A model generated the notes under the pieces. That model did not search any database and was not told where the DNA came from. It was given only the letters and a program-made list of their open reading frames with translations. Of a stretch of 21,323 bases of DNA, positions 10,166-21,323 are shown piece by piece. Source of the stretch: a virus; the IMG/VR virus record IMGVR_UViG_3300046499_000246, positions 1-21,323 of that record; one strand, given 5' to 3'. The position numbers were made by a program, and so were the translations under genes. Positions within the stretch are counted from its first letter, which is position 1, and each line of letters opens with the position of its first letter.

Positions 10166-12051
10166 ACCGCCTCTCGTTCAGCTAGGAGCAGTTCGCGGTA
10201 GTCCGCGAGGTTGACTACGTGCCGCTCGCGAAGCCGATCCTTCGAGGCGTACGGGTTGTTCATGTGGGACGACACCTGTCGGCCACGGTGGAGGATGCGG
10301 TTGAACCCGATCTCTGTGAACCAGCTCGCCATCACCAGGTCTGTTTTCGAGCCCTGCTTCATGCCCGACGGCTGCCAGATCACGTACTGGTTGATCAGCT
10401 CACCCACCCAGGCGTTCTGCTTCGGGTTCGGCAGCTCGATCAGCGCCTTCTCGGGCGTCTTCTTCCAGATGCCGTCACCGCCGTTCGACGGCGGCTCACC
10501 ACAGGTGAGGAACAGCTGGGCCATGGCCGCAATGCCGAAGTCCGGGTCGAACTTGTTCGCGGTCGTGTAGTGCTCCGACAACTTGCAGCCACGGCTACGC
10601 AGGAACTGCAACAGCTCGTCGTCCTGCGTCAGGAAGCGTTGGAACGCGTTCCGCTCGATCACCCACTCGTTGATGCGGTAGGTGTCAGTCAGGCGTTTGA
10701 CGGTGTCGCGCATCAGACGCGGCGTCGTGTTCTTGTTGTTGAAGCCGTCGAGGTAGAACCGCTTCTCAGTCGTCCGGTCGAGACCGGCGACGATCATCGC
10801 CGTGTTGCCGACCGTCGCGGGGTCAAGCCCGCCGACGACGTACAAGCCGTCCATCCCACCAGGCCGGTGACCCATCCCGTTGGCCGTCATCGGGCCCGGG
10901 AACCGCTGCATGTTGATCGACGCCTGGACAGCTTTCGCGTTGAACGTCGCGTCCTCGGCCACGTCCTGCTGCTGGTAGACCAGCGCCCACGTCGCCTCGT
11001 CGCGGCGGATCTTCCGCAGCCGCTTGCCGCTGAACCGCTCAGGCCACAACGGCACCCAGTTCTCCGGGTTGCCGTCGCCCTCATCGAGGACCGCCGGCAT
11101 CGAGAAGTACGTGTAGACCTTGTTGTCGTCGAAGTCGACGGTGTCGCGCATCGTCGAGTACAGGTCGACCGGCGCGACACGGGTGCCGAGAACCCCCAGC
11201 AGGCCAGCGCCGTCCAGGCGCGACTCGACCTCCTGGTCAAGCCAGCGCCGCTGCTTGTCGTACTCGTTGACGTTCGCCAACGTCACCGCATCGTCGAGGA
11301 GGATGACGTCCGACCGCGCACCGTAGATGCGGCCCCCGATGCCGAGGGCTTGCATGGTCGGGTCCTTCTCGCCGTCGCCCTTGCCCTGGACGAAGATTTG
11401 CGTCTGCGTCCAGCTGGAGTCGGGGTCCTTCCACCCGCCATCAGGGGCGAAGCGGAGGTGCATCTCGCGGTAGACCGGGGACGTGAGCCGGAACTTCACC
11501 GCGCCGAGGATCTGCACCGCGAGGCCCTGGTCCTTGCAGACCACGATGATCTTGATATCGGGGTCTTTGTGGATCAGGTACGTGCACCAGTTGATCGATA
11601 TCGAAGTCGTCTTCGCGTGCCCAGGAGGCACGTTGATGATCACGCGACCGGCGGGCACATCTGGCCGGCGCGACTCCCACTTCGTTCCCGGGTCATGCCG
11701 GAACACCGGCAGGATGTCGCGAGGCTCGCGCCCTTCAAGGACGTCCCACATCCGAAGCTGGTGCGGGAAGAGTGGCTGCTTGAGGTACTGCTCGCAAAAG
11801 ACATCGAACGGTGGCAGCTCAGGCCGACCAGAGTCCTTGATGTCAGCCCGCGTCGACCGCAGCTCCTGTAGCGCAGCCTTGAACTCAGGATCGTGCTTCT
11901 GCCAGTCGCGATACGTCTCAGGCGACCGCCCCACCGAGGCACACGCCTCGGCGACCTTCGCGCCGCCAGCGATCAGCTCAAGCACCTTCGCCTTGGCCTC
12001 TGCGACCGGGATCTGCTTCTGGGGGCTGCGGCGGGCTACCGACTTCGCCAT
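10162..12051 (-). CDS. terL: Terminase large subunit (ATPase/nuclease) with N-terminal HTH
   Basis: This is the DNA-packaging motor. The ATG at 12051 is chosen because GGAGG lies 6 nt upstream; a longer frame to 12096 lacks such a site. In the 629-aa product, residues 14-55 hold a helix-turn-helix (VAEACASVGRSPETYRDW), the kind of module normally in the small terminase. Walker A is VPPGHAKTT (141-149) and Walker B is VILLDD (249-254). The C-terminal RNase H-like nuclease is marked by VVGGLDPAT with D410 as its first metal ligand. No separate small terminase gene is seen, so this protein may recognise DNA itself. The portal follows with a GTGA overlap, and the gene overlaps its predecessor by 16 nt. 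Confidence 0.93.
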   Translation of the reverse strand: MAKSVARRSPQKQIPVAEAKAKVLELIAGGAKVAEACASVGRSPETYRDWQKHDPEFKAALQELRSTRADIKDSGRPELPPFDVFCEQYLKQPLFPHQLRMWDVLEGREPRDILPVFRHDPGTKWESRRPDVPAGRVIINVPPGHAKTTSISINWCTYLIHKDPDIKIIVVCKDQGLAVQILGAVKFRLTSPVYREMHLRFAPDGGWKDPDSSWTQTQIFVQGKGDGEKDPTMQALGIGGRIYGARSDVILLDDAVTLANVNEYDKQRRWLDQEVESRLDGAGLLGVLGTRVAPVDLYSTMRDTVDFDDNKVYTYFSMPAVLDEGDGNPENWVPLWPERFSGKRLRKIRRDEATWALVYQQQDVAEDATFNAKAVQASINMQRFPGPMTANGMGHRPGGMDGLYVVGGLDPATVGNTAMIVAGLDRTTEKRFYLDGFNNKNTTPRLMRDTVKRLTDTYRINEWVIERNAFQRFLTQDDELLQFLRSRGCKLSEHYTTANKFDPDFGIAAMAQLFLTCGEPPSNGGDGIWKKTPEKALIELPNPKQNAWVGELINQYVIWQPSGMKQGSKTDLVMASWFTEIGFNRILHRGRQVSSHMNNPYASKDRLRERHVVNLADYRELLLAEREAV

Positions 12052-12239
12052 GACGCCCTCCGCACTCCAACTTCGAGCGGGCCGCTGTCCAGCCACCGTT
12101 CCTCGTCGTCGGCCACGGGGAACCCGAACGGGATCTCATCCGCACCGACGGAGACCAGCTCGACGTCGGGCTTCTCGCGTACGCCCATCACTAGGTCGGC
12201 GAGTACGAAGGACCCAAAGGAGATCCGCAGAGCCAGCAC
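12036..12239 (-). CDS. Small protein upstream of terminase, 67 aa
   Basis: The GTG at 12239-12237 is preceded by GGAGG at 5-nt spacing; a longer frame to 12314 runs into the tRNA-like gene and terminator and is rejected. The product is short and acidic in its second half (VELVSVGADEIPFGF, DDEERWLDSG), with no recognised domain. Its end overlaps the terminase start by 16 nt, so the two are translationally coupled. It lies just after the tRNA terminator and is the first gene of the virion operon. It could be a reduced small terminase subunit, but no DNA-binding motif is evident. Confidence 0.6.
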   Translation of the reverse strand: MLALRISFGSFVLADLVMGVREKPDVELVSVGADEIPFGFPVADDEERWLDSGPLEVGVRRASWRSR

Positions 12240-12256
12240 ACGAACCTCCGGGTATG

Positions 12257-12285
12257 AAAAAACCCGGCCCCATCGGGAACCGGGT
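12257..12285 (-). terminator. Intrinsic terminator after the tRNA array
   Basis: On the minus strand ACCCGG and CCGGGT pair around TTCCCGATGGGG and run straight into TTTTTT. It ends 5 nt downstream of the last tRNA-like gene and 17 nt before the start of the small terminase-upstream gene. It therefore separates the tRNA transcript from the late operon, whose promoter or antitermination must lie here. Confidence 0.85.
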
Positions 12286-12290
12286 GTGTG

Positions 12291-12458
12291 TGCTCGCAGA
12301 TGGGATCGAACCACCGACCACCGCTGGCGCTTTCCGTACTTTCCAGGTGCCTGGCGCTAGCGACCAGTCGGCCGAGAGTTTTCCGTAGTCGCGTTGATCC
12401 AGCAGCCGCTCTGTCCATTGGCCGGAGTTTGCTTCCGGCTCATCGGGCGCATACGAGC
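12291..12458 (-). tRNA. tRNA-like element, 168 nt, interrupted or degenerate
   Basis: The 3' end is tRNA-like: T arm GGTGG-TTCGATC-CCATC, then TGCGAGC and discriminator A, with CCA not encoded. The only complementary 5' strand nearby is GCTCGTA at 12458, a full 7-bp acceptor with one G-U, placed 11 nt after the previous tRNA gene. Between them are about 140 nt rather than the usual 60 or so. A 5-7-5 hairpin CCGGA-AGCAAAC-TCCGG could be an anticodon arm reading CAA (Leu) but has G at position 33. There is also a D-arm-like AATGGACAGAGC and a CACCTGG/CCA..GGTG helix. It could be an insertion-bearing tRNA, a fusion of two broken tRNAs, or another RNA with a tRNA-like 3' end. Confidence 0.4.
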
Positions 12459-12469
12459 ATGTGTGAACG

Positions 12470-12553
12470 TGCGTGCCCCAGGACTCGAACCTGGCATCCC
12501 CAAAGGGAAAGCGGATTTGCCGTCCGCCGAGCGAGCCGCCGCTCCTAACACAC
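12470..12553 (-). tRNA. Class II tRNA-like gene, anticodon GCA by position, G33
   Basis: An 84-nt cloverleaf folds completely: acceptor GTGTGTT/GGCACGC (three G-U), D arm GAGC-8 nt-GCTC, anticodon arm GCGGA-CGGCAAA-TCCGC, a 16-nt variable arm (TTTCCC..GGGGATG), T arm CCAGG-TTCGAGT-CCTGG, discriminator A. The variable arm makes it class II (Leu, Ser or Tyr in bacteria). The anticodon at 34-36 reads GCA (Cys), with G instead of the near-universal U33. The anticodon stem equals that of actinobacterial tRNA-Tyr, whose loop is CTGTAAA, so a Tyr origin with changes at 33 and 35 is plausible. Aminoacylation identity cannot be stated. Confidence 0.7.
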
Positions 12554-12561
12554 ATTGCTGC

Positions 12562-12632
12562 CAGGCCAGGGAGGATTCGAACCCCCATACATCCCCGCGC
12601 GTCAGGTGCTCTGCCACTTGAGCTACCGACCT
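12562..12632 (-). tRNA. tRNA-like gene with broken anticodon arm
   Basis: The 71 nt have an acceptor AGGTCGG/CTGGCCT (7 bp, two G-U), TA, a canonical D arm GCTC-AAGTGGCA-GAGC, and T arm GGGGG-TTCGAAT-CCTCC, with discriminator G. The anticodon segment ACCTGACGCGCGGGGATGTAT is 2 nt short and cannot form a 5-bp stem with a 7-nt loop: the 5' half CCTGA is typical, but its partner TCAGG is gone. It may be a pseudo-tRNA, or a tRNA body kept for another purpose. It is 7 nt from tRNA-Phe and 8 nt from the class II gene. Confidence 0.6.
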
Positions 12633-12639
12633 GGACTTG

Positions 12640-12712
12640 CCGCAACCCGAGGGGTCGAACCTCGAACCTCCCCCATTTCACGGGGGCGCTCTGCCAATTG
12701 AGCTAGGTCGCG
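12640..12712 (-). tRNA. tRNA-Phe (GAA)
   Basis: A standard 73-nt cloverleaf: acceptor CGCGACC/GGTTGCG, TA, D arm GCTC-AATTGGCA-GAGC, anticodon arm CCCCC-GTGAAAT-GGGGG with U33 and anticodon GAA, 5-nt variable loop AGGTT, T arm CGAGG-TTCGACC-CCTCG, discriminator G. CCA is not encoded. It is the most canonical tRNA of the array. Confidence 0.93.
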
Positions 12713-12782
12713 AAATGCCGCATCATTGGCCTGCGTGCGGCTCACAGGTGTCGTCAGCCCAGGCGCACCGAGACTGACAGAG
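12713..12782. other. 70-nt spacer in the tRNA array with one inverted repeat
   Basis: It has no T arm and so is not a tRNA, although it has tRNA length. It holds the 6-bp inverted repeat GCCGCA/TGCGGC over a 13-nt loop directly after the 5' end of tRNA-Phe, possibly a processing hairpin. Confidence 0.4.
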
Positions 12783-12852
12783 CAGAGACACCAAGAATCG
12801 AACTTGGCTCAGCCGGTTTTGGAGACCGGCCGCCTCCCAGAGGCATCCCTCC
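12783..12852 (-). tRNA. tRNA-Trp (CCA) with shortened D arm
   Basis: The anticodon arm CCGGT-CTCCAAA-ACCGG has U33 and anticodon CCA; variable loop CTGAG; T arm CCAAG-TTCGATT-CTTGG. The acceptor GGAGGGA/TGTCTCT pairs with one G-G mismatch. The D arm is reduced to about CCTC-TGG-GAGG, a 3-nt loop without the usual A14 or GG18-19 context, giving only 70 nt. Discriminator is G and CCA is not encoded. Identity is clear; whether it is fully functional is not. Confidence 0.75.
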
Positions 12853-12857
12853 GGACC

Positions 12858-12887
12858 TCAGAAGGTCCAAGCACCGTCGCGAAACAT
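12858..12887 (-). CDS. Nine-codon ORF with near-perfect Shine-Dalgarno (MFRDGAWTF)
   Basis: AGGAGGAGGTGTC stands immediately before an ATG, one of the best ribosome-binding sites in the window. The frame closes after nine codons (M F R D G A W T F) with TGA, 5 nt before tRNA-Trp. Upstream, AGTACGT and ACGTACT form a 7-bp inverted repeat right before the Shine-Dalgarno. It contains one Trp codon. It may be a leader peptide, the stump of a decayed gene, or a ribosome-loading site on the tRNA transcript. Expression is not shown. Confidence 0.35.
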   Translation of the reverse strand: MFRDGAWTF

Positions 12888-12997
12888 GACACCTCCTCCT
12901 AGTACGTCCCGAGCGACCTCTCACCCACGTACTGGTGATTCACCGGGATAGGGCCTACGGCACCGCCGACGATCGCCTAGTCAAAGCGGAGATGCTG

Positions 12998-13077
12998 TGG
13001 AGGTGTGGGGAATTGAACCCCAGTGCGCCGGCAGGCCGTCATGCGGTTTTCCACCGACGTCGAATCCATCCACCCCC
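12998..13077 (-). tRNA. tRNA/tmRNA-like RNA, 80 nt, identity unassigned
   Basis: Acceptor GGGGGTG/CACCTCC (7 bp, one G-U) and T arm TGGGG-TTCAATT-CCCCA are complete, with discriminator A and no CCA. There is no normal D arm: nucleotides 8-20 read GATGGATTCGACG, matching the D-loop segment of tmRNA (GG-TTCGACG). An imperfect hairpin CGGT-GGAAA-ACCG has a 5-nt loop that looks like a Ser-GGA anticodon loop missing two bases. A CGG-CCTG-CCG helix could be a variable arm. There is no space for a tag-peptide frame. It is either a degenerate class II tRNA or a minimal tmRNA-like tRNA domain. Confidence 0.5.
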
Positions 13078-13080
13078 GTG

Positions 13081-13169
13081 TGCTGAGGCCGGGTGCCGAA
13101 CTCGATTAAGGCCGAATGGCGATCCGCAGACCCGTGTGGCCACACCCGTTAAGCTGCCGTTCCCGCAGC
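13081..13169 (-). tRNA. Possible degenerate tRNA-like element, 89 nt
   Basis: GCTGCGG and CCTCAGC pair 6 of 7 as an acceptor, with discriminator A. TCGAG-TTCGGCA-CCCGG is a T-arm-like hairpin with one mismatch and G in place of A58. It starts directly after the stop codon of the 129-aa gene and ends 3 nt before the next tRNA-like gene, as array members do. I cannot fold a convincing D or anticodon arm; it instead contains the palindrome GTGTGGCCACAC. The call is weak. Confidence 0.28.
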
Positions 13170-13559
13170 TCACCCCAGCAACGAACCCGTACCGCGGGCT
13201 GCGGTCCCCCACTCGCTCAGTAGTGGCCCTGCATGTGGCCCGAGCTGGCGAAGGTGGGAAAGAACAGGCTTGACGACATCACTGTCGACAGGAGCCCATC
13301 CGAGAAGGTCGGCTGCCCTCGCAAGTGGAAGGGTTTTCGGCAGCCGAGAAATGTTGAACCCCAGAAGCTCCAGCGCCTCGAACACCGCCTCGGTGTCGAC
13401 CTTGTGCGCCACCACCGGGGCGAAAAGCCCGTACCTCTGCCGCCACTTCCGCATCAGGTCCGGCACATCTCGAGTTTCACTGATCCGCGCAGACCAGTCG
13501 GGGAAAGCCCCGACAAGCACGTACCTCTTCACCCACACCCCCTCGGTCACCAAGAACAT
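13170..13559 (-). CDS. Hypothetical protein, 129 aa, upstream of the tRNA array
   Basis: The codon use looks phage-like. The product is basic at first (KRYVLVGAFPDWSARI), then has RKWRQRYGLFAPVVAHK and a helical region VFEALELLGFNI. The second half resembles a small helical DNA-binding or adaptor protein, but I do not recognise a family. ATG at 13559 has a poor ribosome-binding site. The in-frame GTG at 13532, with GAGGGG 6 nt before it, is at least as likely and gives 120 aa. It is the most upstream gene of the leftward segment, followed directly by tRNA-like genes, and downstream of the hairpin array at 13601-13879. Confidence 0.6.
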   Translation of the reverse strand: MFLVTEGVWVKRYVLVGAFPDWSARISETRDVPDLMRKWRQRYGLFAPVVAHKVDTEAVFEALELLGFNISRLPKTLPLARAADLLGWAPVDSDVVKPVLSHLRQLGPHAGPLLSEWGTAARGTGSLLG

Positions 13560-13600
13560 TACCGTCAGGTGTCAGCGAAGTCGTGGGGTTTCCCGTACCG

Positions 13601-13879
13601 GACGCCCGTGATTAGGGAGACGGGCGTCTAACTATTCATGGAGCATCGGGCGTCTTGACGCCAAGTCTTACGGGCGGCTGAAGCCGCCTAACTAGCTGGG
13701 CGTCCCTGACGCCCTAAGTCCGGGTTCGAACTTCGTTCTCACCCTTATATATACCTCGGACAAAAAATACGGACAGTTGAGACGAGCCCCCTTAAACGGG
13801 GGCGAGTTAACTAGTAAATGAGACCTACTTCACAGGTCCGGGAACCGAAGGTTCCCCGTACACGACGCCCCCAGGCGTC
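13601..13879. repeat. Array of seven GC-rich perfect stem-loops
   Basis: Stems: GACGCCCGT/ACGGGCGTC (13601-13628), GGCGTC/GACGCC (13649-13662), GGCGGC-TGAA-GCCGCC (13673-13688), GGGCGTC-CCT-GACGCCC (13698-13714), GCCCCC/GGGGGC (13786-13803), GGGAACC-GAA-GGTTCCC (13840-13856), GACGCC-CCCA-GGCGTC (13864-13879). Three are followed by TAACTA, directly or within 4 nt (13629, 13689, 13808), and one by TAAGTC. Four share a GGCGTC/GACGCC core, so they look like amplified copies. They have no T tracts, so they are not ordinary terminators. Confidence 0.7.
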
Positions 13880-13882
13880 ACA

Positions 13883-14008
13883 CCCGCACTCCTCCCCCCG
13901 GATACCCCCTACACCGCCTCCCCCAGAAAAATGAGCGTAGGGACGTTTATATGTACGCCGGCCGCCACGGGAAACGGGGGGTCAAAGCCGGACAGGGTGG
14001 GGCGAGGG
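13883..14008. other. Opposed G-runs (quadruplex-prone) on both strands
   Basis: On the minus strand, runs of 3-6 G occur at 13883-13924 (four runs). On the plus strand, runs occur at 13969-13971, 13976-13981, 13995-13997, 13999-14002 and 14006-14008. Both are in non-coding DNA between the hairpin array and the iron boxes. Folding is only a possibility. Confidence 0.35.
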
Positions 14009-14165
14009 CTGCTCTTCTTCGCATACCCGGACATGACCCATCGAGATCAGCCTATCTTCCCAGGTCAGGGGGCATATTCCATGCCCACCATGCCCATGGT
14101 CTATGGGATTTGATCCGAACTCCCTTGTCCCCTAGGCCTGGCCAGCCATGCCAGCGACAGGCCGG

Positions 14166-14199
14166 ACGCCGGTACCGGCGTGACAGTGCCCGAGGGCAC
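14166..14199. repeat. Palindrome and hairpin upstream of the iron boxes
   Basis: ACGCCGGTACCGGCGT (14166-14181) is a perfect 16-bp palindrome. GTGCCC-GA-GGGCAC (14186-14199) follows at once, 12 bp before the first iron box. They may be protein-binding sites or a hairpin pair. Confidence 0.55.
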
Positions 14200-14210
14200 G
14201 CTAGGCCAGG

Positions 14211-14229
14211 TTAGGTTAGCCTTACCTAA
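14211..14229. promoter_or_regulatory. Iron box 1 (DtxR/IdeR/DmdR operator), perfect match
   Basis: TTAGGTTAGCCTTACCTAA fits all 19 positions of the actinobacterial iron-box consensus TWAGGTTAGSCTWACCTWA. That site is bound by the Fe(II)-dependent repressors DtxR, IdeR and DmdR1. It lies in non-coding DNA. No clear -35/-10 pair could be fixed around it, so the controlled transcript and direction are unknown. Confidence 0.8.
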
Positions 14230-14251
14230 TGGATGGTGCCAGCACAAACGG

Positions 14252-14270
14252 TTAGGTTAGGCTGCCCTAA
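14252..14270. promoter_or_regulatory. Iron box 2, 17 of 19 positions
   Basis: TTAGGTTAGGCTGCCCTAA matches the same consensus except at positions 13 and 14. Its centre is 41 bp from that of box 1, close to four helical turns, so two dimers would lie on the same face. A TATGTT hexamer at 14285 could be a -10 for a rightward transcript, without a good -35. Confidence 0.7.
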
Positions 14271-14310
14271 CTAACTCCTCTGTGTATGTTACAGCATCGA
14301 CCGGAGGCTG

Positions 14311-14343
14311 TGACCTGCGGTTATGCGGTGTTTCCGCTGGTCA
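14311..14343. repeat. Stem-loop repeat, copy 1 (TGACCTGCGGTTATGC)
   Basis: TGACCTGCGG and CCGCTGGTCA form a 10-bp stem with one mismatch. The first 16 nt are identical to copy 2 at 14567. It lies 41 nt after iron box 2. Confidence 0.65.
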
Positions 14344-14414
14344 GCGGTGCTGACTTTCTGAGGCTGTGTCCCTGTCGACCCTGGCAGCGGTTCGCCTAGC
14401 GGCTGTTTGTGGCT

Positions 14415-14491
14415 CTGCGAGTCCCGCAGGGGTGTGCGGTGGGCACGCTGCAGCGTGCCGAGCGAGTGCGACAGGTGGCACAAACTGTCGC
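14415..14491. repeat. Three consecutive hairpins, one an 18-bp perfect palindrome
   Basis: CTGCG-AGTCC-CGCAG (14415-14429), the perfect palindrome GGCACGCTGCAGCGTGCC (14442-14459), and GCGACAG/CTGTCGC with a 10-nt loop (14468-14491). Spacing between them is 8-12 nt. None has a terminator T tract. Confidence 0.6.
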
Positions 14492-14555
14492 CTAGCTGAC
14501 ACAACGTTCATCAATATTCCCAGCTCAGGGCACATATGAGCCCTTCGAGCCCCTC

Positions 14556-14583
14556 TTGACAGGTGTTGACCTGCGGTTATGCA
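14556..14583 (+). promoter_or_regulatory. Putative sigma70-type promoter
   Basis: A perfect -35 TTGACA (14556-14561) and a TATGCA -10 (14578-14583) are 16 bp apart. The -10 lies inside stem-loop repeat copy 2, so the structure or a protein bound to it would control the promoter. It reads rightward toward the early-type genes. Confidence 0.5.
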
Positions 14584-14598
14584 CGTTTTCCCAGGTCA
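14567..14598. repeat. Stem-loop repeat, copy 2
   Basis: TGACCTG and CAGGTCA form a perfect 7-bp stem, with the same first 16 nt as copy 1 (14311). The loop sequences differ (GCACGTTTTCC against GCGGTGTTTCC) but the outer pairing is kept. Confidence 0.65.
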
Positions 14599-14788
14599 CA
14601 GGCTTGATCGATAGATCGAGCTGTCTCGATAAAGCCATCGAACCTCATCTACGTGTTGGCCGAGTTCTTGCTGGTCAGGGTACAGATGAAAAAAACTTTG
14701 GTGTTCTTGTTGACACGGGACACCATGAAACCTTCTACTTATGGAGCAACACAGCACGGCAGCGAGGTTGGCAGCGCCCCCGAGGGAG

Positions 14789-14813
14789 CGTCGCCCCGAT
14801 TCAACGGGGGACG
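14789..14813. repeat. Stem-loop, 8 bp with one bulge
   Basis: CGTC-G-CCCC pairs with GGGGGACG around GATTCAAC, with the single G bulged. It stands about 38 nt before the 14-bp tandem repeats. Confidence 0.45.
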
Positions 14814-14850
14814 TGTGGAACTCGGATCTAGGGCACTCATCCGCTGGCAG

Positions 14851-14892
14851 GGAAGACGGAGCTAGGAAGACGTAGCAGGGAAGACGGGCCCC
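14851..14892. repeat. Three tandem 14-bp repeats (iteron-like)
   Basis: GGAAGACG recurs at 14851, 14865 and 14879, exactly 14 bp apart, in units GGAAGACGGAGCTA, GGAAGACGTAGCAG and GGAAGACGGGCCCC. Such direct repeats are common in replication origins and operator arrays. No AT-rich unwinding element is next to them. Confidence 0.6.
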
Positions 14893-15071
14893 TTAGTCGC
14901 GATCTGCAGCAGGTGGCGGCTAGGTGTGTGGCTGTCCTTTGAAAACTCCACAGTGTCATACGCAGGGCTGGCATTCAGCCGCGAGCGTTGAGACGTCGCA
15001 GTAGCGACGCGAGAGCCGTCGACTTGTCCGGCTCAAACGTCACTGAACACACGTCGCGAAACGTACGTAGA

Positions 15072-15110
15072 CCCTGCCTCCCAAACTCACTAGTTCACGG
15101 TGAGGCAGGG
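15072..15110. repeat. 9-bp inverted repeat with 21-nt loop
   Basis: CCCTGCCTC and GAGGCAGGG are perfect complements around a loop containing the palindrome ACTAGT. It lies about 165 bp upstream of the first rightward gene and could be an operator or leader hairpin. Confidence 0.55.
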
Positions 15111-15200
15111 GAGAGAGACCGCGCCGCCCGTCCCTCATCGATACGGGTATCAGTCGCACTCGATTCCCTGCCTACGCCGTGTCCGGTGAATAACGGACCT

Positions 15201-15274
15201 GGCCACTACGTGGCCGGTAACGCCCTTGACCTGCTCCAACAGGTCTCGGGCCGAGGGATATGGGAGTCCCGAAC
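15201..15274 (+). promoter_or_regulatory. Leader of the first rightward gene, with a degenerate start motif
   Basis: Hairpins GGCCAC-TAC-GTGGCC (15201-15215) and ACCTG-CTCCAA-CAGGT precede GGGATATGGGAGTCCCGAAC and the ATG at 15275. This line matches the GGGAAAGTGAGTCCCGA line found before 17343 and 18191, with the AAAGTG part changed. The GGGAG may serve as ribosome-binding site. Confidence 0.45.
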
Positions 15275-15877
15275 ATGGCTAAGTCTGACCTGTCGCATGA
15301 CGAGCGTTTGCAGACGATTGGTGAGTCAACCCGCAAGGTTGCTGACCGGATTGTCAAGATGTGGAACCGTGCGACGGATGCGGATAAGGAGGCTGGTGCC
15401 AGGTGGTATGCGGAAGGCGAAGCGTTTATCGATGAGCTGACCGTCCGATCTGGCAAGACTCGCGACCAGGTGGCGGCGGTGGTGGCTCACTTGTCACCGC
15501 GTACGACCTGGCAGCGAAACCTCCTCGGCGCACAGTCGCTGTTGCTGACCGATCAGGCACCAGGTTGCATCGGTGCGAACGTCGACCGGGCACGTAAGGC
15601 TCTGGCGGCTGACCAGCCACTAGGCACGCTCAACGGCCCGAAAACGTCTCGCTTCGCTCGGAATCTCCTGGGTGACCGCGAAGCGGTGACGGTCGATGTG
15701 TGGGCGGCGCGGGTCGCTCTGGGCGCCCGCGACGATGCGGAGCTATTGCTCGGCCGGGTAGGCGTGTACGAGGCGATCGAACACGCGTACCGGGTAGCAG
15801 CTCGCAGGGTGGGCGTGGACCCCGTGACCATGCAAGCAACCACTTGGATCGTGGCGCGTAACGGTCGCGCCGACTAG
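15275..15877 (+). CDS. Putative HhH-GPD-like DNA glycosylase-fold phage protein, 200 aa
   Basis: The ATG at 15275 is preferred over the in-frame ATG at 15260, because the latter lies inside the leader motif. The layout recalls the HhH-GPD superfamily: an N-terminal helical part, HLSPRTTWQRNLLGA, then GPKTSRFARNLLGD at the helix-hairpin-helix position, then VTVDVWAARVALG. Its Asp sits where EndoIII/AlkA-type enzymes have the catalytic Asp (VDxHVxRV). A conserved-looking end is MQATTWIVAR. There is no iron-sulphur Cys cluster. If active it would excise or guard modified bases; it may be a non-catalytic relative. The fold call is my reading of motifs only. Confidence 0.7.
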   Translation: MAKSDLSHDERLQTIGESTRKVADRIVKMWNRATDADKEAGARWYAEGEAFIDELTVRSGKTRDQVAAVVAHLSPRTTWQRNLLGAQSLLLTDQAPGCIGANVDRARKALAADQPLGTLNGPKTSRFARNLLGDREAVTVDVWAARVALGARDDAELLLGRVGVYEAIEHAYRVAARRVGVDPVTMQATTWIVARNGRAD

Positions 15878-15961
15878 CGGAAATGGTTCGTGGGGGCGGT
15901 TCGATTCCGCCCCTCCGCACGCTGCGGCAACTAGGCCGCACGAAGTGAAAGTGAGTCAAGG
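15877..15961 (+). promoter_or_regulatory. Leader with tRNA T-arm-like hairpin and start motif
   Basis: GGGGCGG-TTCGATT-CCGCCCC (15893-15913) has a perfect T-loop. GCGGA (15877) and TCCGC (15914) enclose it like an acceptor. GCGGC/GCCGC follows, then GTGAAAGTGAG (15945-15955), a one-base variant of the start motif, 6 nt before ATG 15962. Confidence 0.6.
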
Positions 15962-16375
15962 ATGAGCCTAGTTAAGGCGATGCTGGCAAGCACTGAGGCC
16001 GAGCGTCAGATGTGGGCGGACATCGAAGTCTGCAAGTTCGCCGCATCTCATCACATGTTCTGCAAGTACAGCGGGCGACTGCTGGACACGCGAACGGTTG
16101 TCGTGGTCGAGATCCTCGAAGGCGGCAAGGTGGCATCCACGATCGTCGCCCACGGTGACGTGTGGGACGACCGGGGCCCGACGGTGACCGCGTGGGCTCT
16201 GGGCAAGGGCTACACGGTCGACGTGACCGACGGTCGGGACCTGGAGCGGTCGCGCAAGTTCTACGTGGCGCAAGAGCGTGCGGTGAAGCGTGCCGCGCAG
16301 GTTGCGAACCTGGCGACCGTGGCCAGCGCCGACGGCGTGGTCATCGCACAGACCCGGCGGGTTGACCTGGTCTAA
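15962..16375 (+). CDS. Hypothetical phage protein, 137 aa
   Basis: I do not recognise the family. The first 45 residues hold Cys and His (EVCKFAASHHMFCKYSG), which could be a small or degenerate metal site. Residues 46-90 are a beta-rich stretch (RTVVVVEI...ASTIVAHGDVW), and the C-terminal third is helical and charged. There is no signal peptide or membrane span. The start is fixed by the motif GTGAAAGTGAG 6 nt upstream. It belongs to the run of small rightward genes with individual leaders. Confidence 0.72.
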   Translation: MSLVKAMLASTEAERQMWADIEVCKFAASHHMFCKYSGRLLDTRTVVVVEILEGGKVASTIVAHGDVWDDRGPTVTAWALGKGYTVDVTDGRDLERSRKFYVAQERAVKRAAQVANLATVASADGVVIAQTRRVDLV

Positions 16376-16459
16376 GTGATCCGACTGTGCAGACTGTCCA
16401 CCACTCCGGTGGTGGGCAGCTCTGGGCAACTCGGCCCACATCGGAAAGTGAGTTCCGAC
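16376..16459 (+). promoter_or_regulatory. Leader: stem-loop plus GGAAAGTGAG
   Basis: Perfect hairpin CCACCAC-TCCG-GTGGTGG (16398-16415), then GGGCAACTCGGCCCAC, then GGAAAGTGAG (16443-16452), 7 nt before ATG 16460. Confidence 0.7.
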
Positions 16460-16885
16460 ATGGCAAGTAAGCAACTGCTGACCCTGGCCGCTGCGATCTC
16501 CGCTGACATGCTGCGGGGCTATGAGCGGTACCTCGAAGAGTGCGACGAGTGGCAGCGGAAGGGCTACCGCCCGCACTACTGCGAGCACGGCACCAACCGC
16601 TGGACGGATTACGACAACATCTGCGGCGGCTGCGAAGAGGGCTACTCGATGCGCGATGGCGTGTTTCGTCGCCGAGAGGCACTAGCTGAGGCGAAGGCGC
16701 AGCTGGCCTCGCCGATCGCCCTTAACACGCTGGTCCGGTACATCGGATCGATGGTGAACGAGCACGGGTTTTATGTCGTGGTCGACTTCGGCCTAGATGG
16801 CCGGTACAAGATCGCCGACGAAGAGTACCCAGAGTTTGTGTTGGCGAACGTGCGCCGCGAGAGCTTGTACGCGGTCAGCAACTAA
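16460..16885 (+). CDS. Hypothetical zinc-ribbon-like phage protein, 141 aa
   Basis: The start at 16460 is set by the leader motif; the frame is open upstream to 16376, which would include the leader. Residues about 40-60 contain HYCEHGT...CGGCEEGYS, a C-x-H...C-x-x-C pattern typical of a small zinc finger. Helices rich in Ala, Arg and Glu follow. The last 50 residues (FYVVVDFGLDGRYKIADEEY) are beta-rich and end before RRESLYAVSN. A nucleic-acid or protein-binding role is possible. The family is not recognised. Confidence 0.75.
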   Translation: MASKQLLTLAAAISADMLRGYERYLEECDEWQRKGYRPHYCEHGTNRWTDYDNICGGCEEGYSMRDGVFRRREALAEAKAQLASPIALNTLVRYIGSMVNEHGFYVVVDFGLDGRYKIADEEYPEFVLANVRRESLYAVSN

Positions 16886-16969
16886 TCGAGTTCGGCTCTT
16901 GGTTGCGGGCCCCCGGTGGGGGCTCGCTTCCTGGGGTAACTCGACCCCTGCACGGAAAGTGAGTGAGAA
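16886..16969 (+). promoter_or_regulatory. Leader: nested double stem plus GGAAAGTGAG
   Basis: Outer pair TCGAGTT (16886-16892) and AACTCGA (16938-16944) encloses the 10-bp stem GCGGGCCCCC/GGGGGCTCGC (16905-16927, one G-U). GGAAAGTGAG (16954-16963) is 6 nt before ATG 16970. Confidence 0.75.
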
Positions 16970-17254
16970 ATGACGGGTTTTTGGGAAGCGATCGATGCAC
17001 AACTAGCCGAACTGAAGTCGGCGCAGGGTGCCGATGACGTGATCCGCATCCTGGGCACGAGCGACGCCCAAGACGGTGCCGCACAAGCGTTCTTCGCTGG
17101 CTCCGGTGGAGACGGCACCGTCAGGGAATCGCTGTACGCGGCTGGCTGGACGAACGTATGGATCGAAGCCAGCTATTACTGGGCGATGCGGGCCCCGGAT
17201 GGCTCAGTGGTCACCTATGTCGAGGGCGACATCTACCGGGGCTCTCGACGGTAA
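16970..17254 (+). CDS. Hypothetical phage protein, 94 aa
   Basis: A small soluble protein: an N-terminal helix (FWEAIDAQLAELKSA), the segment DDVIRILG, a Gly/Ala turn region, and an aromatic C-terminal half (AAGWTNVWIEASYYWAMRAP, then GSVVTYVEGDIYRG) that is probably a beta sheet. No enzyme motif is evident. It is an alpha/beta single-domain protein of unknown role. Start is set by the motif 6 nt upstream. Confidence 0.72.
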   Translation: MTGFWEAIDAQLAELKSAQGADDVIRILGTSDAQDGAAQAFFAGSGGDGTVRESLYAAGWTNVWIEASYYWAMRAPDGSVVTYVEGDIYRGSRR

Positions 17255-17342
17255 CTGGCGTGAGTCGGAGCGTGCCGGGGTTGCTCGGCACGCTGCGGGA
17301 TAGCGCCAGCTATCAACCACACAAGGGAAAGTGAGTCCCGAG
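17255..17342 (+). promoter_or_regulatory. Leader: nested double stem plus GGAAAGTGAG
   Basis: Outer pair CTGGCG (17255-17260)/CGCCAG (17304-17309) encloses AGCGTGCC/GGCACGCT (17269-17294), whose loop GGGGTTGCTC recurs in the 18609 leader. GGAAAGTGAG (17326-17335) is 7 nt before ATG 17343. Confidence 0.75.
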
Positions 17343-18098
17343 ATGTCGGAGAACAACAAGATGCTGGGCAAGATCCGTGCGCTGCTGGCGCTTGCGGAGG
17401 ACCCAGCGGCCACCGGCCCGGAGGCTGAAGCCTTCATGGCGAAGGCTGCCGAGCTGATGGCGAAGTACGGCATCGATCGTGCGCTGTTGGGTGCTCTGCA
17501 CCCGGAGACCGACAAGGTCGGCGACAAGATCGTGGTGGTCCCCGGGCCGTATGCGATGGGGCGGATGCGACTGCTGCACTGCATCGCGGTGGCTCTCGGC
17601 GTTCGCACGCTGCAGCGGCACCGCAACGCGGGGCAGGACCCGGGCACGGTGGAGCTGCACATGTTCGGCATGGAGTCGGACTTGGAACGTGTCGAGATCC
17701 TGTACACGTCGCTGCTGCTGCAGGTGCTGACCGCACAGACGCGAGACGCCGTCAATTCCCCGGCGGCGGCGCGTAGCCCACGTAAGTGGAAGCGGGACTA
17801 CATCGAAGGGTTCGCGACGGTCGTACACAACCGGCTGAAGGACGCCGAGGACCGTGCCCGTCGGGCGGCTGAGCCAGAGGCTCGAGCGAAGACGGGTAAG
17901 TCGATGGAGCTGGTCCTGGTCGACCGCAAGGCGCAGATTGACCGGCGGTTCGCGGCTATCTACCCGAACACCAGGACGACCGGCTCGCGCCGCAAGGTTG
18001 GCTCCGGTTACTTCCGGGGCAACGAGGCGGGACGCCGCGCCGACCTGGGCGGTAGCCGCGTCGGGAGCACGAGCGGGCGCACGGCGCTGGCCCGCTGA
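17343..18098 (+). CDS. DUF2786 domain protein, 251 aa
   Basis: Residues about 7-46 fit the DUF2786 pattern: KIRALLALAEDPAATGPEAE, then AEAFMAKAAELMAKYGID, the helical segment common in actinobacterial and phage proteins. Residues 55-150 form a second conserved-looking domain (RMRLLHCIAVALGV, HMFGMESDLERVEILYTSLL). The last 100 residues are very basic (RKWKRDY, TTGSRRKVGSG, GRTALAR) and probably bind nucleic acid. The ATG at 17343 is preferred to an in-frame GTG inside the motif at 17331. The biochemical role of DUF2786 is not established. Confidence 0.85.
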   Translation: MSENNKMLGKIRALLALAEDPAATGPEAEAFMAKAAELMAKYGIDRALLGALHPETDKVGDKIVVVPGPYAMGRMRLLHCIAVALGVRTLQRHRNAGQDPGTVELHMFGMESDLERVEILYTSLLLQVLTAQTRDAVNSPAAARSPRKWKRDYIEGFATVVHNRLKDAEDRARRAAEPEARAKTGKSMELVLVDRKAQIDRRFAAIYPNTRTTGSRRKVGSGYFRGNEAGRRADLGGSRVGSTSGRTALAR

Positions 18099-18190
18099 GT
18101 CTGCATCGCTAGCGCGCCGACCAGTCGTGTGAGGGCTGGCCGGCGTGCGGGTGGGGCAGGCCCATCTATCGAGGGAAAGTGAGTCCCGAA
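18099..18190 (+). promoter_or_regulatory. Leader: 10-bp stem plus GGAAAGTGAG
   Basis: CGCCGACCAG (18115-18124) pairs with CTGGCCGGCG (18136-18145) with one mismatch. GGAAAGTGAG (18174-18183) and the trailing TCCCGAA lead to GTG 18191. The surrounding 15 nt match the 17343 leader. Confidence 0.7.
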
Positions 18191-18610
18191 GTGAACCGGA
18201 CACAAGAACGCATCCAGTTCCTGACTGACGTGCTGATCACGGCGGTCGAGAACTACGGGTACGGCTGGTTCTCGGTCGACGAGTACGAGCCGGGTGGAGA
18301 CGAACCGGACGGCAAGGCGTATGCGGCCATCACGGACGACTTCGACGACAACAAGCAGCACCGCATCGACCTGGCGGTGATCGCACACGGGTTCGGTGTG
18401 ATCACCGACGCGAAACCAGCAGTCGACCCGAAGCACCCCAACGACGGCGAGGTGCTGCACAACGCCAAGACGGGCCAGCGGCTGTTCGTGTCGGGCCAGA
18501 ACCGCAAGCGGTTGGTGGAGGCTTCACGGCTGAACGACGCTGGCGAGCTTGACGTGATCGACGCACTAGCGGTTGTGGAGTGCGGGCTGTTCGGCGCGGT
18601 GACGTACTGA
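18191..18610 (+). CDS. Hypothetical phage protein, 139 aa
   Basis: The GTG at 18191 is chosen because it lies 7 nt after the start motif, as in the neighbouring genes. Sequence: an N-terminal helix (TQERIQFLTDVLITAVEN), an acidic segment with aromatic residues (GYGWFSVDEYEPGGDE), ITDDFDDNKQHRIDLAVIAHG, and a C-terminal helical DAGELDVIDALAVVECG. It resembles the one-domain acidic early proteins common in actinobacteriophages, but no family is recognised. It is cytosolic, with no metal site. Confidence 0.72.
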   Translation: MNRTQERIQFLTDVLITAVENYGYGWFSVDEYEPGGDEPDGKAYAAITDDFDDNKQHRIDLAVIAHGFGVITDAKPAVDPKHPNDGEVLHNAKTGQRLFVSGQNRKRLVEASRLNDAGELDVIDALAVVECGLFGAVTY

Positions 18611-18691
18611 GTCATGGGGTTGCTCGCCAGCTTCGGCTGGCGGGTTTCCGCGCAACTCAGCGCAACCCATACGGAAAGTGAGTGAGTAGAG
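18609..18691 (+). promoter_or_regulatory. Leader repeat A: hairpin plus GGAAAGTGAG
   Basis: A 74-nt unit (18609-18682), 93 per cent identical to 19428-19501. The stem CTCGCCAGC-TTCG-GCTGGCGGG (18623-18644) has a UUCG tetraloop, and GGTTGC pairs with GCAACC outside it. GGAAAGTGAG is at 18673-18682, 9 nt before ATG 18692. Confidence 0.85.
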
Positions 18692-19423
18692 ATGGACAAC
18701 AAGCCGTTCAACGGTGCAGAGGTCGTGGCCGTGTTCCCCCGGGTGACCGGCGGGCCCGACAAGTGGGTCGTGGCGCAACACCACGAGTTCGAGTATGTGG
18801 CCTTCTGGGCGACCGACATGACCGCACCGACCTGGGGGCAGGGGCACTACTTCCTGCAGGACCGCGAGGCGGCGCTGCGGTGGGCTGCCGAGCAGGCCGG
18901 TTACGTCGGGAGCAAGGAGGAGGACGAGGAGATGCGTCCGCAGGTCGAGGCGGCGGCGCACTTCCTCAACGTCTGCAGCGAGGTGATCGGGTCGCTTCCG
19001 GGCGACTACTCGTGCTACCTGACCTGCTACGAGGCCGAGTCGCTGGCCGAGCTGTACCGAGCCTTCGGCGATGACGGCAAGGCCGACGACGTCATCGAAG
19101 GCCACGCCGAGGGTGACGAGCACGGCGAGAAGCACTGCCGGTGCGAGGAGTGCGTGCCGACGGTCGACTGCCCCGGCTGCCCGTCCGAGCAGGAGATGGC
19201 CGCGAGTCGGGCGGCGTGGACCGCCTTCAACCGAGAGGTCTCCGAGGCCGAGGTCGACTACGTCCGCAAGCGCCCGGGCCCCGGGCCCTGGAACGAGTCG
19301 TGGTTCACCAGCGAGGAGCACAGGGCCCTGCTTGCCCGCAAGCCTCAGATGCTCTACAGCGGCTGCCCGACCTGCAACTACAAGGGTAGGGTGCCCGCTC
19401 CGCAGGGGCTGGTCACCGTCTAG
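18692..19423 (+). CDS. Hypothetical Cys-rich phage protein, 243 aa
   Basis: Three parts can be seen. Residues 1-70 form a compact domain with aromatic residues (HHEFEYVAFWATDM, FLQDREAALRWAAEQAG). Residues 75-150 are acidic and helical (ESLAELYRAFGDDGKADDVIE). Residues 145-243 contain two metal-binding-like clusters, HCRCEECV...CPGC near 150-165 and SGCPTCNYKG near 226-235, flanking a helical linker. The Cys pairs suggest two zinc ribbons and hence nucleic-acid or protein binding. The N-terminal part resembles small phage domains of unknown function. No catalytic motif. Start is set by the motif. Confidence 0.75.
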   Translation: MDNKPFNGAEVVAVFPRVTGGPDKWVVAQHHEFEYVAFWATDMTAPTWGQGHYFLQDREAALRWAAEQAGYVGSKEEDEEMRPQVEAAAHFLNVCSEVIGSLPGDYSCYLTCYEAESLAELYRAFGDDGKADDVIEGHAEGDEHGEKHCRCEECVPTVDCPGCPSEQEMAASRAAWTAFNREVSEAEVDYVRKRPGPGPWNESWFTSEEHRALLARKPQMLYSGCPTCNYKGRVPAPQGLVTV

Positions 19424-19507
19424 CACTGAGTCACATGGTTGCCCGCCAGCTTCGGCTGGCGGGCTTCCGCGCAACTCAGCGCAACCCATACGGAAAGTGA
19501 GACCGAG
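19424..19507 (+). promoter_or_regulatory. Leader repeat B: hairpin plus GGAAAGTGAG
   Basis: The second copy of the 74-nt unit (19428-19501). Its stem CCCGCCAGC-TTCG-GCTGGCGGG (19442-19463) is fully Watson-Crick, where copy A has a T-G wobble. GGAAAGTGAG is at 19492-19501, 6 nt before ATG 19508. Confidence 0.85.
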
Positions 19508-19693
19508 ATGGACACCGAGCTGGAGATGCAGACGCTCGATGACGGCTACGTGTACCTCGCGAAGCGGTTCGAGGGCGTCTACACGCTGGCGGTCACCGGC
19601 AACAACAACGCCGAGACCGAGGTGCGGCTGACGAAGCTGGACCTGCTGCGCCTGATCAAGGGGGCGGCGCAGCTGCTCGCCGAGAGCGAGTGA
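19508..19693 (+). CDS. Hypothetical small protein, 61 aa
   Basis: An acidic protein with a predicted beta-rich first half (DDGYVYLAKRFEGVYTLAV, then AETEVRLTK) and a C-terminal helix DLLRLIKGAAQLLAE. The frame is open further upstream to 19439, but the leader motif places the start at 19508. It is translationally coupled to the next gene (GTGA overlap). Function unknown; a small interaction or inhibitor protein would fit its size. Confidence 0.68.
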   Translation: MDTELEMQTLDDGYVYLAKRFEGVYTLAVTGNNNAETEVRLTKLDLLRLIKGAAQLLAESE

Positions 19694-19935
19694 GCATGCC
19701 GAACAACGAGCCGCCCGTGCGGTACATCCCGCCGCAGGGCCACCAGTACCCACCACCGCCGCCGCAGTACGTGGCGACGACTCGGCAGTACGTCGAGACG
19801 AACCAGCGTGGCCTGCGTGGCTCCCACGCGGCGCTGATCATCTGGGGGTCGATCATCGCGATCCCCGTGCTCATCTGCTTGGTGTGCGGGGTGCTGGCCC
19901 TAATCGGGTCGGCAGCTAGTCCGCCGCAGCACTAA
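19690..19935 (+). CDS. Small membrane protein with proline-rich N-terminus, about 80 aa
   Basis: GTG at 19690 overlaps the previous stop; ATG at 19696 (MPNNEPPVRY) is equally likely. Residues 1-45 are hydrophilic and Pro/Gln/Tyr-rich (PPQGHQYPPPPPQYVATT). Then comes one membrane segment of about 23 residues, ALIIWGSIIAIPVLICLVCG, extended by VLALIGSAAS. No signal-peptidase site is clear. The Cys residues within the span could be lipidated or chance. Phage proteins of this build are often superinfection or membrane-modifying factors; no holin partner is visible here, so that is open. Confidence 0.7.
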   Translation: MSMPNNEPPVRYIPPQGHQYPPPPPQYVATTRQYVETNQRGLRGSHAALIIWGSIIAIPVLICLVCGVLALIGSAASPPQH

Positions 19936-20032
19936 CCCCATCCAGCATGTTCCGTCCCGCGCCGGCCACCCGGTCGGCGTGGGTCGGTGGGTGCTGCCCA
20001 GAAGGGGAAGCACTTGGAAGAGGGAGCAATAG

Positions 20033-20395
20033 ATGAGCAAGTTCGCTTCGCAACGCGACAAGGTGCTGTGGCACCTGTGGCAGCGGGGTTTCGCGACCCG
20101 CGAGGGCGGCGAGATCGGTTCGCGATCGGGCGGTTTCGCCACGGTCCACATCTCCACCCCAACCGAGGTGGCGAAAGCGGAGGCGACCTGCGGGGAGCTG
20201 CTGGCGCGGGTGCAGTTGCCGGTCGAGAAGATCGTCGGCCACTTCGTTGTCAGCGAGGACCACTACGGCCGCTGCCACGTCTACGACTTCGAGCGTGGCT
20301 ACCAGGCCGACGACGAGTTCGACGACCGGCAGCGTACCCACCGGCTGCGTACCAACCCGGGCTACCGCCTGCGGGAGTTCCCGACCGCCGCCTAA
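20033..20395 (+). CDS. Hypothetical phage protein, 120 aa
   Basis: The start ATG at 20033 has GAGGGAGC upstream and lacks the GGAAAGTGAG motif, the only uncoupled gene here to do so. The 97-nt gap before it includes a GTGCT/AGCAC imperfect hairpin. The protein starts with basic residues (MSKFASQRDKVLWHLWQRGF), then GGFATVHISTPTEVAKAEATC, which looks alpha/beta, then a beta-rich VEKIVGHFVVSEDHYGRCHVY and an acidic, Arg-rich tail. I do not recognise the family. Confidence 0.7.
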   Translation: MSKFASQRDKVLWHLWQRGFATREGGEIGSRSGGFATVHISTPTEVAKAEATCGELLARVQLPVEKIVGHFVVSEDHYGRCHVYDFERGYQADDEFDDRQRTHRLRTNPGYRLREFPTAA

Positions 20396-20424
20396 CAACC
20401 AACCAACGGAAAGTGAGAGAAGAG
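20396..20424 (+). promoter_or_regulatory. Short leader with GGAAAGTGAG, no hairpin
   Basis: Only 29 nt separate the genes, with repeated AACCAACC and GGAAAGTGAG (20408-20417), 7 nt before ATG 20425. The motif is therefore kept even where the hairpin is missing. Confidence 0.7.
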
Positions 20425-20634
20425 ATGAAGAGGCCAGCAAGTCGGCAGCACGAGATCGGGTCGCTGCATCGGCGACTCCGTCAGGTCGTGCGCCAGGCCG
20501 AATACCGGAAGGTCAGTGGGCTGAAGCCGACCGAGGCGCAGCTCGCCGAGATCACCAGGTTGAAGGCTGGCATCAAGCAGCAGGAAGAAGTCCAGGCGCA
20601 GATTGAGCTGCAGCAGTTCGAGGAGGCGGCATGA
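20425..20634 (+). CDS. Hypothetical basic helical protein, 69 aa
   Basis: Almost entirely helical and charged: HEIGSLHRRLRQVVRQAEYR, then a short link (KVSGLKPTEAQ) and a second helix LAEITRLKAGIKQQEEVQAQ. A helical-hairpin or coiled-coil protein, perhaps a DNA- or RNA-binding adaptor. Start is set by the motif 7 nt upstream. The stop overlaps the next start by 4 nt (ATGA). Confidence 0.7.
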   Translation: MKRPASRQHEIGSLHRRLRQVVRQAEYRKVSGLKPTEAQLAEITRLKAGIKQQEEVQAQIELQQFEEAA

Positions 20635-20936
20635 ACCGCAACCGCCCGATGCGCCGGGATCGGCCCGAGCGGCTGCCGATCGGTGTGGAGGTCGTCGTCG
20701 CGCACATGGGCGGCGACCCGCTGCTGCGGGACTCGCTGCTGGCGGGGATGTTCCCGTTCGAGCGGATGAACCTGGCTGAGACTCTGGCCGGGTTGTCCCG
20801 CACGCTGACGCAGTACTGCGCCGGATGCGGAGCCCCGATGGAAGAGGACGAAGGCATCCTCACGATCAGCTCCGACCACATGCAGGTGCGCCGGCACGAG
20901 CAGTGCAAGGTCGGCTGGGGTCAGGTGGCGGCATGA
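20631..20936 (+). CDS. Hypothetical zinc-finger-like protein, 101 aa
   Basis: Basic N-terminus (MNRNRPMRRDRPERL), then a hydrophobic segment IGVEVVVAHMGGDPLLRDSL, then YCAGCGAPMEEDEGILTIS and VRRHEQCKVGW, giving C-x-x-C...H-x-x-C as probable metal ligands. A small zinc-binding protein of the kind that binds nucleic acid or the host RNA polymerase; no family recognised. It overlaps its neighbours by 4 nt on both sides, so three genes are coupled. Confidence 0.7.
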   Translation: MNRNRPMRRDRPERLPIGVEVVVAHMGGDPLLRDSLLAGMFPFERMNLAETLAGLSRTLTQYCAGCGAPMEEDEGILTISSDHMQVRRHEQCKVGWGQVAA

Positions 20937-21323
20937 CGTGGAAGCGGGTCCTGGCCATCGCTGGCCTTGTGGCCGTGGCGGTCATGGCCGGTGCCGTGTC
21001 CTACACGCACCAGTACGAATTGGCCGCACACACTGGCCAGTCCGAGCTGTTGGCCAGAGGCTACCCGGCCACGATCGATGGCCTGATTGCCGCCTGCGGC
21101 GGGATGGTGGCCATGGACCGGGCTGCCGGTTGGCAGCCTCGCTTGTGGGCGGTGACCGGGTTCTGGCTCGGGTTTGCCGCGTCCGCTGCCGCGAACTGGC
21201 TGGCCACACCGGGGGGCGTTATCGCCCACCTCGTGTCCGCTTTCCCGGCTATCGCCTTCCTCTGGTCGTTTGAGGCATTGACCGGGCGTCCGACGAAACG
21301 GCTGAAGGCCCTTCCGCAGGTCG
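20933..21323 (+). CDS. DUF2637-type membrane protein, C-terminus beyond the window
   Basis: The ATG at 20933 overlaps the previous stop (ATGA), and the frame stays open to the window end (130 codons). Four hydrophobic segments are visible: VLAIAGLVAVAVMAGAVSY, then IDGLIAACGGMVAMD, then LWAVTGFWLGFAASAAANWL, then VIAHLVSAFPAIAFLWSFEAL. The features SYTHQYELA, YPATIDGL, SAAANW and FPAIAF match DUF2637, a family I know from Streptomyces plasmids (Spd proteins of the spread locus) and actinophages. Its function in phages is not established. The match is from memory of the family, not a search. Confidence 0.8.
   Translation, partial: MTWKRVLAIAGLVAVAVMAGAVSYTHQYELAAHTGQSELLARGYPATIDGLIAACGGMVAMDRAAGWQPRLWAVTGFWLGFAASAAANWLATPGGVIAHLVSAFPAIAFLWSFEALTGRPTKRLKALPQV

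Follow-up and report, generated by a model that had tools for sequence, protein, structure and literature searches.

The start-associated sequence of the right arm

The IMG/VR virus record IMGVR_UViG_3300046499_000246 is a stretch of DNA of 21,323 bp from a soil-type phage; it was analyzed at its full length and is referred to as the window in the following. Its structural genes are encoded on the minus strand and a second set of genes, the right arm, on the plus strand, with a largely non-coding region in between (13.6-15.2 kb). The uncoupled genes of the right arm are preceded by a ten-letter sequence, GGAAAGTGAG, that occupies the position of a ribosome-binding site (RBS) and is treated here as a start-associated sequence (SAS). 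Seven exact copies are found in the record, all on the plus strand and each 6-9 nt 5' of a start codon:

16443, 16954, 17326, 18174, 18673, 19492 and 20408 (+): exact copies of GGAAAGTGAG from the sequence scan
16460, 16970, 17343, 18191 (GTG), 18692, 19508 and 20425 (+): starts following these copies, with spacers of 7, 6, 7, 7, 9, 6 and 7 nt, respectively
15946-15955 (+): one-base variant TGAAAGTGAG, 6 nt ahead of the start at 15962

A preliminary description of this DNA had reported the motif ahead of almost every uncoupled rightward gene, ending 6-9 nt before the start, and a one-base variant ahead of 15962. These statements were borne out, with seven exact copies, one variant copy and the gene at 20033 as the only exception. 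All exact copies are linked to starts; none lies in the remainder of the record, and the structural block has none. By Markov models of order 1-3, only 0.007-0.017 exact copies would be expected by chance on the plus strand of the window. If two mismatches are tolerated, 17 copies are counted compared to 16 expected by chance, showing that it is the exact sequence that carries the signal. The coupled genes at 19696, 20631 and 20933 (gaps of 2, -4 and -4 nt) lack the motif, as had been stated for genes with overlapping starts. For 15275 a degenerate copy had been proposed; the sequence GGGATATGGGAGTCCC adjoins this position (context GGGATATGGGAGTCCCGAAC-ATG, compared to GGGAAAGTGAGTCCCGAG-ATG at 17343), and the proposal stands if the first gene starts there, the open reading frame (ORF) being able to open at 15260 as well. 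All right-arm ORFs show a coding-like G+C content at third codon positions (0.71-0.97), and several of the marked ORFs match PHROGs of unknown function.

The motif possesses neither a canonical AGGAGG-type Shine-Dalgarno (SD) core nor the tetramer GGAG, in agreement with the earlier statement that it is not a classic GGAGG sequence. A partial pairing with the 3' end of 16S rRNA through GAAAG, also suggested before, is possible: with the actinobacterial 16S tail the motif can form GAAAG, a bulged U and GAG (-8.1 kcal/mol). However, 45% of the shuffles of the same ten letters pair equally well or better with the anti-SD. As the pairing energy is average for the composition, 16S pairing does not account for the exact conservation of all ten letters.

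RNA structure of the intergenic elements

At seven of the eight marked sites the gap to the upstream gene measures 81-92 nt, and these gaps share a common layout composed of a GC-rich hairpin (HP1), a smaller hairpin (HP2) and the motif. In the relatives, and less clearly in the window, the HP2 loop, often together with the 3' arm of the stem, is complementary to a short strand just 5' of HP1, at or near the stop codon of the upstream gene (strand A; its counterpart in HP2 is termed A'). The fold z-scores given below compare the stability of a gap with that of dinucleotide shuffles.

15275-15877 (+): first right-arm gene, phrog_3842, with the degenerate SAS just 5' of 15275
15878-15961 (+): gap element 1, 84 nt; HP1 GGGGCGG..CCGCCCC; HP2 TGCGGC-AACTAG-GCCGCA; variant SAS TGAAAGTGAG at 15946-15955; start 15962
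16376-16459 (+): gap element 2, 84 nt; TCCG loop in HP1; HP2 TGGGC-AACTCG-GCCCA; SAS 16443-16452; start 16460; z -4.8
16886-16969 (+): gap element 3, 84 nt; strand A TCGAGTT at 16886-16892; HP1; HP2 GGGGT-AACTCG-ACCCC; A:A' pairing of 7 bp; SAS 16954-16963; start 16970; z -3.2
17255-17342 (+): gap element 4, 88 nt; strand A CTGGCGT; HP1; HP2 GATAGC-GCCA-GCTATC; SAS 17326-17335; start 17343; z -4.7
18099-18190 (+): gap element 5, 92 nt; strand A GTCTGC; HP1; HP2 GGGTGGG-GCAGG-CCCATCT; SAS 18174-18183; GTG start 18191; z -3.5
18611-18691 (+): gap element 6, 81 nt; strand A CTGAGT, which overlaps the stop codon; UUCG loop in HP1; HP2 GCGC-AACTCA-GCGC; SAS 18673-18682; start 18692; z -1.9
19424-19507 (+): gap element 7, 84 nt; strand A CTGAGT; HP1; HP2; SAS 19492-19501; start 19508; z -4.6
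19936-20032 (+): structured 97-nt gap before 20033, with GGAAGAGGGAGC in place of the motif; z -4.3
20408-20417 (+): SAS in a gap of 29 nt that has no hairpins; start 20425

The window gaps are more stable than their shuffles throughout (z -0.9 to -4.8), and the 66 nt 5' of the motif show a mean fold z of -3.2. Elements 6 and 7 are a recent duplicate pair, their HP1 and HP2 being 84% identical. The remaining elements are 45-61% identical to each other, compared to a shuffled mean of 50% and a 95th percentile of 55%; with the elements near the shuffled level and the motif exact, the SAS outlives its surroundings. The sequence GGGGGCGGTTCGATTCCGCCCCTCCGCA at 15889-15920 (+), which forms HP1 of element 1, is similar to the T-arm and 3' end of a tRNA, and no tRNA was called there.

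In related phages of the Beephvirinae, HP1 consists of a stem, a small internal loop, a second stem and a tetraloop, and HP2 follows immediately 3'. The HP2 stem score exceeds that of shuffles with z 7.4 over 39 Beephvirinae sites and z 3.1 over the eight window sites. A compensatory change with unchanged loop is seen in HP2 between the phages FlowerPower (CCTCTC-gcacg-GAGAGG) and Stella (CCCCTC-gcacg-GAGGGG), and in a mixed alignment seven of eight paired columns of HP1 are changed on both sides. The complementarity of strand A and the HP2 loop was compared with loops swapped between gaps and reached z 6.3 over 31 annotated gaps and, in a looser test window, z 6.8 over 71 sites, whereas control sites of the phage clusters K and EF gave z -0.1 and z -0.6, respectively. 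In the window the A:loop pairing score is 5.5-7 in five of seven gaps. The complementarity extends into the 3' arm of HP2 and four-base loops are fully paired; for these reasons we favor A:A' and HP2 as putative mutually exclusive structures rather than as a coexisting pseudoknot. At five of the eight copies the flanks of the motif can also pair and would place it in a hairpin loop (P ~0.005 compared to swapped spacers), and the flanks TGA..TCA of the variant copy constitute a matching two-sided change.

Relatives with the same layout and other marks

The portal and terminase genes were used to place the phage:

8309-10165 (-): portal, placing the phage beside the Beephvirinae
10162-12096 (-): terminase large subunit (TerL), placing the phage beside the Beephvirinae

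Both proteins show 38-41% identity to the Beephvirinae (portal 39%, TerL 38%), and matches in the portal search are limited to 29 Beephvirinae-type Streptomyces records and two records of ct2KA10. Judged by these two proteins, the phage sits beside the Beephvirinae, lytic Streptomyces phages of which one member, Abafar, was described as a virulent podovirus (PMC11536984). The gene order TerL, portal, a protein of ~1,650 aa and minor tail is common to the window and FlowerPower. As the right-arm genes of FlowerPower run leftward up to the genome end, the window looks like two joined genome ends read in reverse. If the genome has the ~45 kb of its relatives, the record spans roughly half of it. 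Relatives at the nucleotide level are missing from the phage collection apart from patches of 66-76% identity, and among viral contigs one protein relative was found for the terminase and none for one right-arm protein.

The order strand A, HP1, HP2 and SAS recurs at the corresponding places of FlowerPower, Manuel, Percastrophe and Stella as well as in four viral contigs with related portals. The mark is near-constant inside one genome and changes from genome to genome. Most uncoupled right-arm genes of the four phages carry (C)AAGGG(G)AGAGA few nt 5' of the start. This Beephvirinae mark is AAGGGGAGAGA-like with a canonical GGAG, in contrast to the window mark without GGAG, and it is absent from the window. 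The marks of the contigs are AAGGGAGAG (L220), GGGAGAGAG (L208), AAGGAGAGA (L207) and TCGGAGAGG (L161). Gap lengths and layout agree, the Beephvirinae-type hairpins stand ahead of the SAS in the window as well (gap fold z to -4.8), and portal, terminase and gene order are homologous. By descent the window element is placed with the Beephvirinae right-arm leaders. No description of these leaders was found in the open-licence papers searched, and the paper on one member (PMC11536984) does not mention repeats. In viral contigs, the matches listed for the pattern CGGAAAGTGAG(n5-9)ATG are single copies, mostly of low GC content, and a stricter motif-start pattern gave 12 single matches. The unrelated low-GC virus contig L084 contains three copies of GTTGCGGAAAGTGAGTGAGAARTG (8602-8621, 9482-9501 and near 9750), a different start-associated repeat in which the ten letters of the window mark occur by coincidence.

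Comparison with known start-associated sequences

SAS and extended start-associated sequences (ESAS) were described for mycobacteriophages of cluster K (PMC3203893, PMC11373665, PMC12699233) and for Microbacterium phages of cluster EF (PMC7302621). The parallel to cluster K drawn in the preliminary description holds for the SAS part: in both cases a short exact repeat at the RBS position (3-9 nt before the start in cluster K, 6-9 nt in the window) occurs in a single orientation in the non-structural arm, ahead of uncoupled genes with gaps >50 bp (seven of eight window sites), and a subset of the copies has an upstream inverted-repeat element. The phage groups are unrelated and the sequences differ; the window motif does not match the 13-bp cluster K consensus GGGATAGGAGCCC with ≤2 mismatches. 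As a control, the k-mer scan recovered GGATAGGAG 15 times from Anaya. The parallel does not extend to the ESAS. Its imperfect 17-bp inverted repeats share a consensus, and RNA pairing received little support from the authors, whereas the upstream repeats of the window keep the pairing without a common sequence, apart from the one duplicate pair. Putative SigA promoters are contained in the ESAS of the cluster K phage Adephagia (PMC11373665), while a consensus scan detected no SigA-like promoter in 13500-21323. Cluster EF resembles the window in that its consensus GGGAAAGGACCCC lies at the RBS position and is tied to an upstream gap element; it differs in sequence, in an ESAS centered on GTAGAG and in the lack of A:loop complementarity noted above. 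The consensus sequences of clusters K and EF show a GGG..CCC symmetry similar to the paired flanks of the window motif.

The earlier reading made the comparison with SAS correctly and omitted the constancy of the gap length, the two hairpins, the A:HP2-loop complementarity and the Beephvirinae parallel. With these, the window set is apparently an undescribed combination of a lineage-specific SAS with a covarying RNA leader. The first start-associated sequences were reported in 2011, and no function has been assigned to them since. In the window and its relatives an SAS is present in an unrelated phage group, attached to an element that covaries in the manner of an RNA rather than of a DNA site, and the natural series of relatives with different marks in one frame makes the question of SAS function testable in laboratory Streptomyces phages.

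Possible mechanism and alternative explanations

The position and exactness of the mark, the architecture of the element, the covariation in relatives and the lineage-specific marks are directly supported. From the sequences we consider it probable that each gene possesses an RNA leader exposing a lineage-specific ribosome-binding sequence, so that every gene is separately initiated. The leader module of an uncoupled right-arm gene would comprise strand A, HP1, HP2, few free nucleotides, the SAS and the start. The phage-specific, purine-rich SAS most likely serves as RBS, and the folded gap may leave it exposed and insulate it from upstream sequence, by which each gene could form its own unit of translation within a polycistronic early transcript. 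Since strand A is located at the upstream stop codon or close to it and can pair with the HP2 loop, a terminating ribosome could choose between A:A' and HP2 and thereby link the leader to upstream translation. The sequence changes in HP2 with retained pairing, together with the A:loop complementarity, point to a leader acting at the RNA level, unlike the ESAS of cluster K.

Several observations weigh against this interpretation. The gene at 20033 is the sole uncoupled gene without the motif (gap of 97 nt, carrying GGAAGAGGGAGC instead), the gene at 20425 has the motif and no hairpins in its gap of 29 nt, and the anti-SD pairing does not exceed that of shuffles, as described above. At random Beephvirinae positions the A:loop comparison yields z 1.8, hence local composition supplies part of the signal. 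For the window gaps alone the complementarity is suggestive only, with z 2.1 in the tightest test window, P 0.06, and a non-significant z 0.7 in the widest; the test windows were chosen after inspection of the sequences and the structural tests are our own scripts. MAFFT and RNAalifold gave no consensus fold for 19 Beephvirinae leaders; stem lengths vary strongly. A strict pairing of the A:loop type with the stop codon was rejected, as among 25 well-paired A strands only 11 reach into this codon.

The main rival is RNA processing, in which an RNase such as RNase III cuts HP1, so that each of the resulting mRNAs would carry HP2 close to its 5' end and the motif as a plain RBS. RNase III-type cutting takes place between the early genes of phage T7. 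The recurrent HP1 geometry and the single element per intergenic gap would fit such a role. In the right arm of the Streptomyces phage Janus (16935-24151, -) we observed 11 matches to the type II hammerhead ribozyme (Rfam RF02276), one per gap of uncoupled genes and in gaps corresponding to those of the window, of which no description was found in the open-licence papers searched. They resemble the window elements in that each gap contains a single structured RNA that ends immediately 5' of the RBS of the next gene, and indicate per-gap cutting in the right arm of another actinophage; they differ by their catalytic core, which no window gap contains. A small ribozyme in the gaps, considered in view of Janus, was rejected because invariant unpaired bases are absent beyond SAS and start, and neither a ribozyme nor any other Rfam family was detected for the gaps (window 12000-21323 and two Beephvirinae loci). 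Processing moreover leaves the exact ten letters and the A:loop pairing unexplained, and we regard it as unlikely. Slightly less credit is given to a mark that a phage protein or an RNA, acting as translational activator or repressor, would recognize during infection; a phage protein or an altered ribosome had been put forward as possible reader in the preliminary description. A co-evolving reader would be expected to leave a mark that is exact within the window and changes from relative to relative, as is observed, and the paired flanks of the motif agree with such a reader; however, flank pairing is missing at 16970, 18692 and 20425 and the sample is small. It is possible that such a reader keeps the ten letters exact.

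That the motif is merely a strong RBS, multiplied when gaps and genes were recently duplicated, appears improbable. It stands at SD distance with partial anti-SD pairing, and elements 6 and 7 are such duplicates, yet the other elements are near the shuffled identity outside a motif that is exact in all copies except one, its pairing energy is average, and genes with coupled starts do not carry it. Still more doubtful is control at the DNA level as proposed for the cluster K ESAS, with a promoter or operator per gap and the motif as mark of a transcript start or RBS. The Adephagia promoters and a TAGGAT or TAGGGT in the HP2 region of some Beephvirinae gaps would be in line with it; against it, no sigma-70-like promoter was detected within 13500-21323, and inverted repeats that vary between gaps and keep their pairing fit an RNA rather than a DNA-binding site. 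U-tract terminators were not detected at the window gaps. These alternatives are partly compatible with each other and with the leader model. A more far-reaching version of the leader model, to which we attach little confidence, would be a reiterated RNA switch in nearly every right-arm gap of Beephvirinae-like phages, formed by the HP2 loop, the strand at the upstream stop and a mark read by a co-evolving phage factor, in which termination sets the initiation of the next gene or mRNA processing across the 80-nt gap.

Further observations

Beside the right arm the window contains several small non-coding features on the minus strand:

12469-12852 (-): tRNA-Cys, tRNA-Phe and tRNA-Trp (ARAGORN) and an Rfam tRNA match at 12562-12632, adjoining the next feature
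12995-13077 (-): 83-nt tRNA-like domain of a transfer-messenger RNA (tmRNA) lacking a tag reading frame (Rfam RF00023); it retains G3-U70 and was not called by ARAGORN
~14195-14275 (-), non-coding: two DtxR/IdeR iron-box-like sequences, TTAGTTAGGGCAGCCTAACCTAA and TTAGGTAAGGCTAACCTAA

A second tag-less tmRNA domain of 83 nt is present in the contig L141 (828-910, +), and the RF00023 scores of the pair are 60 and 65 bits. The mycobacteriophage DS6A was reported to encode a tmRNA without coding sequence that inhibits the host tmRNA (PMC11915505), and the two domains may be further examples of this kind. The iron-box-like sequences may hint at a host with a DtxR/IdeR-type regulator. In Stella, a segment near the genome end (20526-20634, -) matches part of a bacterial small-subunit rRNA with 85 bits.

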